Shown piece by piece: positions 14,198 to 22,831 of a stretch of 64,000 nucleotides of DNA. A program made the translations under genes and the position numbers. This DNA comes from Sphingomonas glaciei (GTDB lineage Bacteria > Pseudomonadota > Alphaproteobacteria > Sphingomonadales > Sphingomonadaceae): the NCBI RefSeq assembly GCF_023380025.1, contig NZ_CP097253.1:2265001-2329000 (forward strand), read 5' to 3'. The notes beneath the pieces are model-generated. The model was not told the origin of the DNA. It saw nothing but the letters and a program-made list of their open reading frames with translations, and did no database searches. The stretch's first letter is position 1, and every line of letters begins with the position of its first letter.

Positions 14198-14803
14198 CTA
14201 AGGCTTCGATTTCGCACCGCGAAGCGCTTCGACCACCTGCGGGCGCAACGTCCATTCGAAATGCGCGTCGTCCTCGCGCCGCTCCATCGTGCGGTGCAGG
14301 GACGCGGCGTCCAGGTCGTCGCTCAAGTAGCCAGCCGCATCGGCCAGAGCGGTCGTCCAGATGGTGCTGCCGTCACCACGCCGGCGGGGATTGAAATTCA
14401 GGTCCTGGGCGACGGCCTGGCCGAGCAGCCCGTACTGGAGATTGGCCGCGCTCCAGTTCGCATAGCCCGCGGCAGCGGCAAGTTCGGTGGCGGTCAGGCA
14501 GTGATCGGGTGCATCGAGATGCGCCTTGAGCATCGCCTCCTGCCCGGCCGACATCTTCACCCGGCCAAAGGCCTCGGCATATTCGAGGGCGGACGGGCAT
14601 CCGTCCTGCCCTTTGCCGCCGGCAATGGTGTCGTCGCGGGCGTCGAGGCTCGCCTTCTTGTCCTTGATCGCGCTCTCAGCGTCGTCTGCAATGGCGCGGT
14701 CGCCTACTTCACGCCCATTGAGGTCGGCGCGACACTGCCAGAGGTGACCTCGCGGCCAGGTTCTGAGAACATACTGGCGATAGGCTTCTTCCTGCATGGC
14801 CAT
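14198..14803 (-). CDS. Uncharacterised protein with a possible helix-turn-helix segment
   Basis: A 201-residue soluble protein. The N-terminal half is charged. The middle (LKAHLDAPDHCLTATELAAA, AGYANWSAANLQYGLLGQAV) resembles a helix-turn-helix-like module seen in some alphaproteobacterial nuclease or regulator proteins. The C-terminal segment is acidic and then basic. No catalytic motif is visible and the overall function is not recognised. It is convergent with the 56-residue gene and divergent from the M15-like gene. Confidence 0.6.
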   Translation of the reverse strand: MAMQEEAYRQYVLRTWPRGHLWQCRADLNGREVGDRAIADDAESAIKDKKASLDARDDTIAGGKGQDGCPSALEYAEAFGRVKMSAGQEAMLKAHLDAPDHCLTATELAAAAGYANWSAANLQYGLLGQAVAQDLNFNPRRRGDGSTIWTTALADAAGYLSDDLDAASLHRTMERREDDAHFEWTLRPQVVEALRGAKSKP

Positions 14804-14876
14804 TCTCCGATCGAGCCAGCGGAGTAGAAGACAAGGCGGACCCCCGGATCAAGCCCGGGTGACGGAGGCTGGAGCG

Positions 14877-15467
14877 ATGGCGCGAACCTGGTCGGTGCAG
14901 CAGTTGAACGAGCTTGGCCGGGTGCGGCTGAGCCGGTCGTTCTTCATGCGCGACATGCTGCACAGCGAGATTGCGCAGGTGCATGGGCTGACCAATGCGC
15001 CCGACGATCCGGAGCTGGCGATCGCGGCAGGGACGCGGCTGTGCGAGGAATTGCTGGAGCCGCTGCAGGAGCGCTGGGGCCGGCTGGCGATCCGCTCGGC
15101 CTATCGCTCACCTGCAGTCAATGCGCTCGGCAGCGAGCAGATGCGGGCGGGCAAGAAGGGCTATAATTGCGCGTCGAACGAGCGGAACGCGGCGCACCAT
15201 ATCTGGGATATGCGCGACAAGGATGGCTGCATGGGCGCGACCGCCTGCGTGGTGGTGCCGGGGTTCTGGGATGCGCATCAGAAGCCGGGCGACTGGCAGA
15301 TCCTGGCGCGGTGGATCGACAACAATCTGCCTTATTCGAGCCTGTTCTTCTTCCCGACATTATGGGCGGTGAACATCAACTGGCACGAACGCCCGCTGCG
15401 GCGGGTAGATAGCTATGCGGAGCCTAAGGGGCGGTTATACAGGAACGACAAGGGCTCCAACGCATAA
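14877..15467 (+). CDS. M15-like peptidase-fold protein (tentative)
   Basis: A 196-residue protein without an obvious signal peptide. The run LCEELLEPLQERWGRLAIRS with AYRSPAVN, followed by a histidine cluster and Asp (NAAHHIWDMRDKDGCMGA), recalls the hedgehog/DD-peptidase fold of M15 peptidases. The exact HxxxxxxD spacing is not canonical, so the assignment is tentative. ATG 14877 follows GGAGGCTGGAG. A perfect 8-bp stem flanks its stop codon. Confidence 0.6.
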   Translation: MARTWSVQQLNELGRVRLSRSFFMRDMLHSEIAQVHGLTNAPDDPELAIAAGTRLCEELLEPLQERWGRLAIRSAYRSPAVNALGSEQMRAGKKGYNCASNERNAAHHIWDMRDKDGCMGATACVVVPGFWDAHQKPGDWQILARWIDNNLPYSSLFFFPTLWAVNINWHERPLRRVDSYAEPKGRLYRNDKGSNA

Positions 15468-15480
15468 GCGCAGGAGCCCT
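15451..15480 (+). terminator. Hairpin around the stop codon of the M15-like gene
   Basis: A perfect 8-bp inverted repeat (AGGGCTCC at 15451-15458, GGAGCCCT at 15473-15480) with a 14-base loop that contains the TAA stop codon, followed by AAATC rather than a T run. It may act as a terminator or 3'-end stabiliser. Confidence 0.4.
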
Positions 15481-15591
15481 AAATCGACACCGTGCCAAGC
15501 TTGTTATCGCCGCGGCACGGCCGCCTCTTACGAGGTCTTGAGGCTCAACGGCAAGCCGCGAGCGATCGATCGGGAAGTGGCGAGCGATGTC

Positions 15592-16014
15592 CTACTTGTC
15601 AAGTGTCAAGCCGAGAGCGTGCCCTACGGCAACCTTGATTGTAGCAAAGTGTTCTTCGGAGACACGTAGATCGTTCAGATACTTACGCCTGCCATGTTGA
15701 TCTCGTCCGGTTCGGAACAGATCGAGGCGTTCTAGGCTGACTGTGGCAATCATGTCGGCTTTCACCCACCACGTCGTCTCTGCGAAGGGCTCCGGCAATG
15801 GAGCAGTTAGTTCAATCTTACAGTGGTAGAGATTTCGCTCATCTGAAGGAGTGCCGCTAAGCGGAACGACGGTGTGTAAGTTGTTCCGACGTGGCAGACG
15901 ACCTGTAATCACCACCGCTGGCCGACGCTTCACCATTTCGGGGGGACGAAAGCCGCCCATGGAGTAGTCGCAAAGAAGAATGGTCCGCGGCGCGGCCGGA
16001 AAGGTCAGTGGCAT
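15592..16014 (-). CDS. PemK/MazF-like toxin-family protein (orphan)
   Basis: A 140-residue protein of the alphaproteobacterial PemK/MazF-like family: RTILLCDYSMGGFRPPEMVK, then RRPAVVITGR, TVVPLSGTP and WWVKADMIATVSLERLD. MazF relatives are mRNA endonucleases acting as toxins; this long subgroup is less well characterised. No MazE- or AbrB-like antitoxin is recognisable. A 77-codon frame upstream (16238-16005) overlaps its start by 10 bases but looks like no antitoxin. No clear ribosome site precedes ATG 16014. Base composition is visibly less GC-rich than neighbours, suggesting acquisition. Confidence 0.72.
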   Translation of the reverse strand: MPLTFPAAPRTILLCDYSMGGFRPPEMVKRRPAVVITGRLPRRNNLHTVVPLSGTPSDERNLYHCKIELTAPLPEPFAETTWWVKADMIATVSLERLDLFRTGRDQHGRRKYLNDLRVSEEHFATIKVAVGHALGLTLDK

Positions 16015-16254
16015 GCACGTTTGTTATGCATACTTGCGACCAGACACCAGCGCAGAGATAGCCCAAGGAAGTACTCCGCACGAAGCGGCCAAGTTCGCAA
16101 TTTAACCTTATTCGTTTCTGAAGATCTCAGCGGATGACCGTCCACTGCAAACCAGCAAACTCTGCGGGCTGGATAACTCATGACTGCGTCCTTCGCAGGC
16201 ATCTTATCGCCACGCCACGCGAGCGAAGATATTGCCAATGTTCTCGTTTTGTAC
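16015..16254. other. Intergenic stretch, no supported gene
   Basis: About 240 bases of less GC-rich sequence between the PemK-like gene and the promoter at 16255. The only sizeable frame (16238-16005, - strand) lacks a ribosome site and any recognisable domain. I see no structured RNA or repeat in it. Confidence 0.5.
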
Positions 16255-16282
16255 TTGACAGCTTTCTAAGCGACGCTACAAT
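16255..16282 (+). promoter_or_regulatory. Near-consensus sigma-70 promoter
   Basis: TTGACA at 16255-16260 and TACAAT at 16277-16282 are separated by 16 bases and point to the + strand. The expected transcription start is about 16289, immediately before two inverted repeats. No open reading frame with a ribosome site follows on the + strand, so the product would be an RNA. Confidence 0.6.
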
Positions 16283-16298
16283 CGGAGCTTAGCGACGC
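16267..16298 (+). repeat. Direct repeats straddling the -10 element (operator-like)
   Basis: TAAGCGACGC at 16267-16276, inside the promoter spacer, and TTAGCGACGC at 16289-16298 differ by one base and are 22 bases (about two helical turns) apart. An inverted copy of the core (CGTCGCT) follows at 16301-16307. This placement is what one expects of a repressor site controlling the promoter, but no binding protein is known. Confidence 0.45.
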
Positions 16299-16400
16299 AT
16301 CGTCGCTGAGGACCACGGCCAAGGCAGCCAAGTCGTTAGACGATCCGCGAAGCGGTGGCTGCCTTGGCCGTGGTCCTCAGCCTCGTTTGCATTTTCTTTG
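16289..16400 (+). ncRNA. Candidate structured RNA with a perfect 26-bp stem
   Basis: The predicted transcript from the promoter at 16255 begins with a 7-bp hairpin (16291-16307, CAT loop) and then a perfect 26-bp inverted repeat: left arm 16305-16330, right arm 16356-16381. The 25-base apical region can itself fold into two small perfect hairpins (TCGT/ACGA at 16333-16343 and CCGC/GCGG at 16345-16355), giving a three-way junction. A T-rich stretch (TTTGCATTTTCTTTG) follows and could terminate it. It is antisense to the 41-codon gene at 16461-16336. Expression is inferred, not shown. Confidence 0.45.
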
Positions 16401-16461
16401 ACGATGATTTCATCCGAGTAGGATGGCGGGTGCGGTTCGCAGCCTTGCGCATCTTACTCAT
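16336..16461 (-). CDS. Very basic 41-residue protein, uncharacterised
   Basis: A 41-codon frame with ATG at 16461 and a strong ribosome site (GGAGGAG, 7 bases upstream), ending TAA at 16336. The sequence (MSKMRKAANRTRHPTRMKSS and then SKKMQTRLRTTAKAATASRI) has 13 Lys/Arg and no Asp or Glu, like small histone-H1-like or nucleic-acid-binding peptides. Its last 15 codons lie in and around the right arm and apical loop of the 26-bp inverted repeat. It is 86 bases downstream of nrdB on the same strand, so it could be cotranscribed. No family is recognised. Confidence 0.5.
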   Translation of the reverse strand: MSKMRKAANRTRHPTRMKSSSKKMQTRLRTTAKAATASRIV

Positions 16462-16547
16462 CGCCTTGCTCCTCCTTCGAGACTTTTACCTGACAGAGGT
16501 AATTCTCACTGTCATTGAGCCGAAATTGCGCTGAAAACGGCGGAAAT

Positions 16548-17621
16548 TTACTCCGCCGCCACCCCAGCATTCGCGAACAGCCCGCCCTCGCCGTCAACCT
16601 GAACCGCTGACTCGGCTTCCGCCGCGCCGTCGTTGGCGACCTTGGCCTTTTGCCGACGGTCGAAGCTGTCCCACACCTGGTTCCAGTCGCCCTTGGTCGC
16701 GGCCTTGGAATATTCGGTCGCGCGCTGCTCGAAGAAGTTGGCGTGCTCGACGCCGTTCAAGAGCGGGGCGAGCCAGGGGAGGGGGTGCTCGTCGACCATG
16801 TAGATCGGCTGGAACCCCAACTGGCCGAGGCGCCAGTCGGCGATGTAGCGGATGTACTTCTTGATCTGCTTGGGGGTCATGCCCTCGACCGGGCCCTGCT
16901 CGAAAGCGAGGTCGATGAAGGCGTCCTCCAGGCGGACGGTCTTCTGGCACTGGTCGATGATGCTCTCGCGCACGTCGGCGGTGAGGCAGTCGCGCTCCTT
17001 CACGAAGGCGTGGAACAGCTTGATGATCCCCTCACAGTGGAGGCTTTCGTCGCGCACCGACCAGCTGACGATCTGGCCCATGCCCTTCATCTTGTTGAAC
17101 CGCGGGAAGTTCATCAGCATCGCGAAGCTGGCGAACAGCTGCAGCCCCTCGGTGAAGGCGCCGAACATCGCCAGCGTCTTGGCGATGTCGGCATCTGTGT
17201 CGACGCCGAAGCTGTTCAGATAGTCGTGCTTGTCCTTCATCTCCTTGTACTGGAGGAAGGCGCTATACTCGCTCTCGGGCATGCCGATGGTGTCGAGCAG
17301 GTGGCTGTAGGCCGCGATGTGCACCGTCTCCATGTTGGAGAAGGCGGTCAGCATCATCTTGATCTCGGTCGGCTTGAACACCGAGCCGTATTTGTCGTGG
17401 TAGCAGTCCTGCACCTCGACGTCGGCTTGCGTAAAGAAGCGGAAGATCTGCGTGAGCAGATTGCGCTCGTGCGGAGTCAGCTTCTGCGCCCAGTCGCGGC
17501 AATCCTCGCCCAGCGGCACTTCCTCCGGCATCCAGTGGATCTGCTGCTGGCGCTTCCAGAATTCGAACGCCCACGGATATTCGAAGGGCTTGTAGGCCTT
17601 GTTGGCTTGGAGAAGGGGCAT
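16548..17621 (-). CDS. nrdB: Ribonucleoside-diphosphate reductase class Ia, beta subunit
   Basis: A 357-residue radical-generating subunit. It carries the diiron/tyrosyl motif METVHIAAYSHLL (Glu-x2-His-x3-Tyr), the DESLHCEG motif with the later Glu/His ligands, and a C-terminus that should dock with the alpha subunit. It has no N-terminal ATP-cone. With NrdA it reduces ribonucleotides to deoxyribonucleotides. ATG 17621 follows AAGGGAG. nrdA lies about 1.7 kb upstream on the same strand, with several small genes between, an unusual separation. Confidence 0.96.
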   Translation of the reverse strand: MPLLQANKAYKPFEYPWAFEFWKRQQQIHWMPEEVPLGEDCRDWAQKLTPHERNLLTQIFRFFTQADVEVQDCYHDKYGSVFKPTEIKMMLTAFSNMETVHIAAYSHLLDTIGMPESEYSAFLQYKEMKDKHDYLNSFGVDTDADIAKTLAMFGAFTEGLQLFASFAMLMNFPRFNKMKGMGQIVSWSVRDESLHCEGIIKLFHAFVKERDCLTADVRESIIDQCQKTVRLEDAFIDLAFEQGPVEGMTPKQIKKYIRYIADWRLGQLGFQPIYMVDEHPLPWLAPLLNGVEHANFFEQRATEYSKAATKGDWNQVWDSFDRRQKAKVANDGAAEAESAVQVDGEGGLFANAGVAAE

Positions 17622-22377: not shown

Positions 22378-22831
22378 TTAACGCTGCCAAGGCCGTGACG
22401 ATAGGGGGCTTGGGCCTGCCTGGACGCCCCGCCTTCGTGGTACGGTTTTGGGTCCATGCTGTCCCGCATGGCTTGAAAAAGGCGGAATGCCGCCGTATCT
22501 GACCCTCGCGGACCGGGCCCCTCTGGCGCCCCCTGCTTGCCCCCGTGGCAATGCAGGAGCGTGATGTCGGACCGCATCGGACACTTCCGATGTGACTGGC
22601 CCGGCGCACTTCCTCTCAGCGTCTCCATGGCCTGCCGCGCGGCGGATGCTCCGATCGACCGTCACCGTCGACACGAGGAGGATCGCGCCATGGCCGAGCA
22701 TTTGGGGATCCGAGCGAGCCCGCGCGGGCGCATCGCTGGCCCGGCATTGTCATCAGGCTGCAACATTTCGGTAACAAAGGCGCCGTCAGCGGCGTCGGGC
22801 GGGCGCCACTTTGTCCAAGGGTGCAACCGCA
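22378..22831. other. Intergenic stretch between divergent genes
   Basis: About 450 bases with no supported gene. An ATG at 22690 has a strong GAGGAGG site, but its frame runs without a stop through the following gene in another frame. A small CCATGC/GCATGG hairpin lies at 22454-22471. Promoters for both flanking genes must be here, but none is clear. Confidence 0.4.

Follow-up and report, generated by a model that had tools for sequence, protein, structure and literature searches.

In type I toxin mRNAs, hok and tisB among them, structured 5' leaders precede the coding frames of small hydrophobic peptides. In type III toxin-antitoxin systems, as far as they are laid out in the part of the source used here, RNA repeats are located upstream of the toxin gene and a terminator lies between the two (PMC5086642). 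We analyzed a window of 64,000 nucleotides from Sphingomonas glaciei, i.e. the whole stretch to which all coordinates refer, in which a locus behind nrdB holds a MazF-like toxin gene, a conserved RNA and a perfect 26-bp hairpin. The initial annotation had singled out the hairpin and proposed a new structured RNA or a mobile or recombination element. The locus matters more than the hairpin alone, and its more interesting outcome is a toxin-RNA module that is possibly, judged from sequence, a type III-like system with the RNA downstream.

Results

The cassette lies behind the stop codon of nrdB (16548..17621, - strand), which encodes the small chain of ribonucleotide reductase, was identified by domain search and genus search, and serves as the chromosomal anchor. 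Its toxin gene (15592..16014, - strand, 140 aa) stands back-to-back with the promoter described below and belongs to the PemK/MazF family according to Pfam (PF02452). Three toxins of this family, among them that of the window, were without a match in NCBIfam, and a sequence profile of the family reached MazF entries of the PDB only at E 0.11 or worse, so the assignment of a MazF fold is based on the predicted structure, which has this fold. The toxin gene was detected in two of 71 genomes of the genus (E <=1e-5), the second being a relative termed G049, while the nrdB end was found in 63 of the 71; the cassette therefore looks acquired and mobile. On the IMG/VR contig L037, a toxin gene with 78% identity starts 14 bases past the stop of an apparent nrdB, with nothing between them. 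In G049 an extra frame of 249 aa (L050, 5764-6513, - strand) separates nrdB from the toxin cassette, so the site behind nrdB takes different inserts. The best relative by nrdB, G011, has many short repeats of the CCCAGAG type and a different, 14-bp hairpin at this site (L052, ~1261-1500). Beside the cassette, a gene on the + strand (14796-15467) gives a weak match to a phage endolysin (phrog_894, E 1.8e-5) and is a possible phage remnant.

Upstream of the toxin gene the content differs between the loci read. The list of open reading frames contains short - strand frames in 16015-16600 of the window, and by eye L040, L044, and L083 have short frames resembling helix-turn-helix or ribbon-helix-helix proteins in this position. 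Protein partners thus seem to vary across loci while the RNA behind the gene recurs. Five of six plasmid records annotate the gene as 'type II PemK/MazF toxin'.

The conserved structured RNA, ~90 nt with three hairpins, is located directly downstream of the toxin gene (15480..15567, - strand), at a distance of ~700 bases from the 26-bp hairpin, shows covariation, and has no match above gathering in Rfam 15. It recurs beside this toxin family in other Alphaproteobacteria and on chromosomes, plasmids, and viral contigs. We inspected the sequence that follows the toxin gene at 23 loci, each of them fetched for carrying a relative of this gene (the window, G049 as L086, L037-L047, L081-L085, and L087-L091). 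The alignment comprised 20 loci cut around a shared motif and omitted L045 and L046, which are similar by eye, and L047, which is not similar. In the consensus fold of these 20 loci, 12 of the 16 pairs show at least one change on both sides, and 92.1% of the cells are paired compared to a mean of 76.9% in shuffled alignments; on each measure none of 500 shuffles was as high. Only sequence was used to build the alignment, which in turn served to derive the structure, and relatedness is not preserved in the shuffles. When the partners were shifted by 1-3 columns, pairing fell to at most 53.5%. The RNA model gave at most one match in each of 25 sources, i.e. there was no sign of the tandem RNA repeats that are a feature of type III systems.

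In the 16 loci measured, the RNA was always downstream, 24-97 bases past the gene end used; in 8 of the 16 this end did not coincide with the stop codon, and the real distance is smaller there. Promoter-like boxes before the RNA were scored in 16 of the 20 aligned loci, without a shuffled control: the -35-like box reads TTGAC in 15 of the 16 and TTGCA in the remaining locus, in 12 of the 16 the distance from the end of the -10-like box to the start of the RNA model is 5-8 bases, and the best pairs reach 7-11 of 12 letters, the window's being the poorest with 7. In the window the -35-like box of the RNA overlaps the last codons of the toxin gene. From these boxes the RNA probably has its own promoter. 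As candidate Rfam relatives we considered ncS037, BjrC68, and naRNA4, and rejected them, with E 0.035-0.16 in a search of 181 bases and scores far below gathering. Among the papers listed for RNA linked to MazF or PemK, none described such an RNA in its title or opening abstract. The only Rfam match at gathering in the window is a terC RNA (RF03067) at 22505-22579 (+). L138 carries the conserved RNA (1501-1580, - strand) without a recognizable MazF-like neighbor and with a helix-turn-helix-like frame upstream.

On the + strand, facing away from the toxin gene, a sigma-70-like promoter spans 16255..16282, with TTGACA at 16255-16260, TACAAT at 16277-16282, a spacer of 16 bases, and 11 of 12 consensus letters. 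A consensus scan of a 5-kb region at a limit of 9/12 gave 2 sites against 0.9 expected, an expectation that applies to the 9/12 limit and not to 11/12. In G049 the counterpart reads TTGACA-16-TATAAT, i.e. the -35 box is identical, the -10 box differs at one base, and the spacer has 16 bases in both. Since the surrounding block of 58 bases (16240-16297) is 78% identical in G049 and boxes and spacer are kept, this is likely a functional promoter. The near-consensus promoter that the initial annotation saw pointing into the hairpin is correct in position, spacer, and letters; its activity is inferred. By eye, an operator-like repeat flanks the -10 box, with copies 22 bases apart at 16267-16276 (TAAGCGACGC) and 16289-16298 (TTAGCGACGC), of which G049 keeps only the second, in part.

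The hairpin downstream of the promoter has arms at 16305..16330 and 16356..16381 (+), which are 100% complementary over 26 bp and enclose an apex of 25 bases (16331..16355). A small palindrome, AGCGACG-CAT-CGTCGCT (16291..16307), reaches into the beginning of the long 5' arm. Both 4-bp mini-hairpins described for the loop, TCGT/ACGA at 16333-16343 and CCGC/GCGG at 16345-16355, are present in the sequence and form in the fold as single-stranded DNA, giving a forked tip (z -11.1); in the RNA fold CCGC/GCGG forms, and TCGT/ACGA is replaced by a shifted version of 3 pairs. The RNA fold reaches -72.9 kcal/mol with z -9.97, and none of 200 shuffles was as good. From base composition, ~1e-8 perfect 26-bp arms with loops of up to 60 bases are expected in 64 kb, and as a control, 400,000 bases sampled from this chromosome in 20 stretches contained 6 perfect hairpins with arms of at least 13 bp, the longest having 14. 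The 26-bp inverted repeat is thus far beyond chance, and the earlier statements on its positions, perfect pairing, and rarity in this chromosome hold.

The initial annotation had also denied that a + strand gene with a ribosome site lies downstream, which is contradicted by a short hydrophobic open frame at 16355..16534 (+). It comprises 59 codons from GTG 16355 and is open through the 3' arm; within the hairpin it is closed further upstream by TGA (16307) and TAG (16337). A second candidate start, GTG 16430, has AGGA (16420-16423) six bases ahead and gives 34 aa; it appears the likelier start. The frame ends at 16534, and its best conserved part, codons 16424-16504, is conserved as protein in G049 (WRVRFAALRILLIALLLLRDFYLTEVI in the window, WRIRFSVFRIILVCLLLLRDALLTDLL in G049). 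Over the 27 codons from 16424, the 28 differences to G049 fall 9/4/15 on codon positions 1/2/3, and the in-frame BLOSUM score is 87, compared to a mean of 39 under the null; none of 5000 simulations reached this score, and the remaining five frames gave 14-38. With 20 codons again 0 of 5000 simulations were as high, with 33 codons 1 of 5000. Since the similarity to G049 after the hairpin is coding, the + strand carries a gene-like unit there. In G049 the frame lacks an ATG, GTG, or TTG from the -10 box to the conserved codons. A model built from the two frames retrieved, among the 71 genomes of the genus, the window's own genome (G000) and G049 at E 4e-30 or better and seven others at E 0.0085-0.093, the best of these inside a frame of 565 aa. 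A large protein collection yielded four candidate homologues of the peptide, none at E <=1, and there was no PHROG or PADLOC match.

In the window the conserved promoter block, the hairpin, and the conserved frame follow each other in this order, and of the three only the hairpin is missing in G049. The hairpin region is a gap in the alignment with this relative, the one that shares the locus, and folding of the G049 leader together with its frame was at the level of shuffled sequence (z 0.13). These observations bear on the idea of a stand-alone small RNA, in which the product is the hairpin RNA itself, made from the promoter, short and highly stable, and terminating within the T-rich stretch or immediately behind it. 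The promoter points straight into the hairpin, and the fold is exceptionally stable, as given above; however, G049, the single relative that retains the promoter, lacks the stem, and the conserved feature downstream is a coding frame. The T-rich tail of the earlier description is present as CTCGTTTGCATTTTCTTTG, but no uninterrupted T-run follows the stem directly. Rfam contained no family for the hairpin at the gathering threshold; at a looser setting several microRNA-precursor models matched the stem, the best with 41.5 against a gathering score of 93, and a known RNA family was rejected. A second sequence carrying the stem was not found in our searches. We thus consider a small RNA unlikely, and a new structured RNA is not supported, given the missing stem and the ordinary fold in G049 and the lack of good homologues in the searches described below. 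As far as one relative can show, the stem is not conserved, as anticipated for the case that the RNA proposal is wrong. Because G049 is the only relative for comparison, a gain in the window's lineage and a loss in G049 cannot be separated.

A mobile or recombination element, such as an inserted MITE-like sequence or a T-ended hairpin recognized in single-stranded form, moved by an enzyme encoded elsewhere, would agree with the perfect arms, with an apex that also branches as DNA, and with the position in an acquired-looking cassette at an nrdB-side site of varying content. Against it, DNA search of the own genome returned the hairpin itself and its own reverse complement, and the next best of the 27 matches listed were short (E >=0.035), i.e. 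it is single copy. The initial annotation had suggested DNA searches for repetition in sphingomonad genomes; in 99 relatives only short pieces matched, the best over 33 bases (G035, E 4.9e-5), followed by G039 (E 0.0012) and weaker ones, in a search of 100 genomes including the own one that missed the 78% promoter block of G049, so that a diverged stem could escape it. Phage records gave no match to the hairpin, plasmid records gave two partial matches of 28 and 38 bases, and none of the IMG/VR contigs contained an exact match to a 22-base piece of the arm. By eye there is no clear target-site duplication at the hairpin ends, with the diverged G049 locus as the sole comparison. As single copy without good homologues in these searches, a repeat or mobile element was rejected as the best reading, and we regard it as improbable. 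A scan of IMG/VR with the promoter pattern gave one match, L116, which we take as chance since the best matches to the small peptide there are weak (E 0.034 and 0.040) and distant from it. The G049 block had no match at E <=0.001 in 296 genomes of the order, a search that also missed G000 and is too insensitive to count.

The hairpin could further block transcription in both directions, between nrdB and the + strand unit that converges on it, and so shield the toxin cassette from nrdB read-through. It is located between the nrdB 3' end and the toxin start, and a G+C-rich stem of 26 bp could stall polymerase. However, an intrinsic terminator would have a T-run at once after the stem, which is seen on neither strand, neither in the + flank (CTCGTTTGC) nor in the - flank (GACGATGCG), and G049 has no such hairpin. 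No terminator-like site was listed at the hairpin in a scan that covered loops of 3-8 bases and thus not the 25-base loop found here. We consider such a block quite unlikely. That the hairpin RNA acts on the adjacent, back-to-back toxin-RNA module, e.g. by pairing with the conserved RNA, with which it shares a short GGCCGTG string by eye, is very improbable, since the predicted pairing was not significant, 31 of 300 shuffles being as strong.

Discussion

For the hairpin we favor, with about an even chance of being right, an account in which a small + strand gene has acquired, by insertion or by origin in place, a palindrome in its 5' leader that is specific to this lineage. We prefer such a recent palindrome over both a family of conserved RNAs and a mobile element present in repeated copies. 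The promoter would make a short mRNA, whose leader in this strain would fold into the 26-bp stem and hide the upstream GTG 16355, leaving translation to the internal start at GTG 16430 with its AGGA. The stem would make the leader stable or turn it into an RNase III substrate. The perfect arms suggest that the hairpin is young rather than long selected, and template switching or insertion may have produced it. Promoter, hairpin, and frame would form one unit of the acquired cassette that also holds the MazF-like toxin gene and the conserved RNA. Translation of the frame and an effect of the stem on its expression are both inferred from sequence. The palindrome by itself would be a strain-level curiosity, indicating that a perfect palindrome can occupy the leader of a conserved promoter.

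For the module we tentatively propose a new kind of toxin-antitoxin system, a reading that we rate somewhat short of an even chance. It would consist of a MazF-fold RNase and a single-copy RNA of ~90 nt with three hairpins, transcribed from a promoter of its own with the -35 box on or close to the toxin stop codon; the RNA would bind and silence the toxin, and the system would be spread over chromosomes, plasmids, and phages. The RNA might instead regulate, guide, or be the target of the toxin protein. Genes annotated as type II PemK/MazF toxins may thus be paired with an RNA that is missing from those annotations, and such pairing would account for the control of orphan MazF-like genes in phages and plasmids.

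The hairpin unit shares with mRNAs of the hok/tisB type the order of promoter, structured leader, and short hydrophobic coding frame. It differs from them in a leader hairpin that is not conserved and a peptide that is unmatched in the libraries searched, and it is a candidate without a shown antisense RNA. The toxin of the module falls into PF02452, as do those of MazEF and PemIK, and its predicted model has the MazF fold. Unlike these type II systems, no constant protein partner was seen; by eye, the content upstream of the gene differs while the RNA behind it recurs.

AbiF of C. difficile with its RCd22 RNA is also a conserved non-coding RNA tied to a toxic phage-borne protein, but in the portion of the source considered the protein belongs to the Abi_2 family and two repeated RNA motifs precede the gene (PMC12373285). 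The type III systems ToxIN, CptIN, and TenpIN resemble the module in combining a toxin fold related to MazF/Kid, which the module's toxin shares according to its predicted structure, with an adjacent structured non-coding RNA (PMC5086642, as far as consulted). They have tandem repeats upstream and a terminator, whereas the module has a single RNA, downstream in the 16 loci measured and probably with its own promoter, and by the definition given in the consulted part of PMC5086642 the module is for this reason not type III. By analogy, it may work like a type III system.
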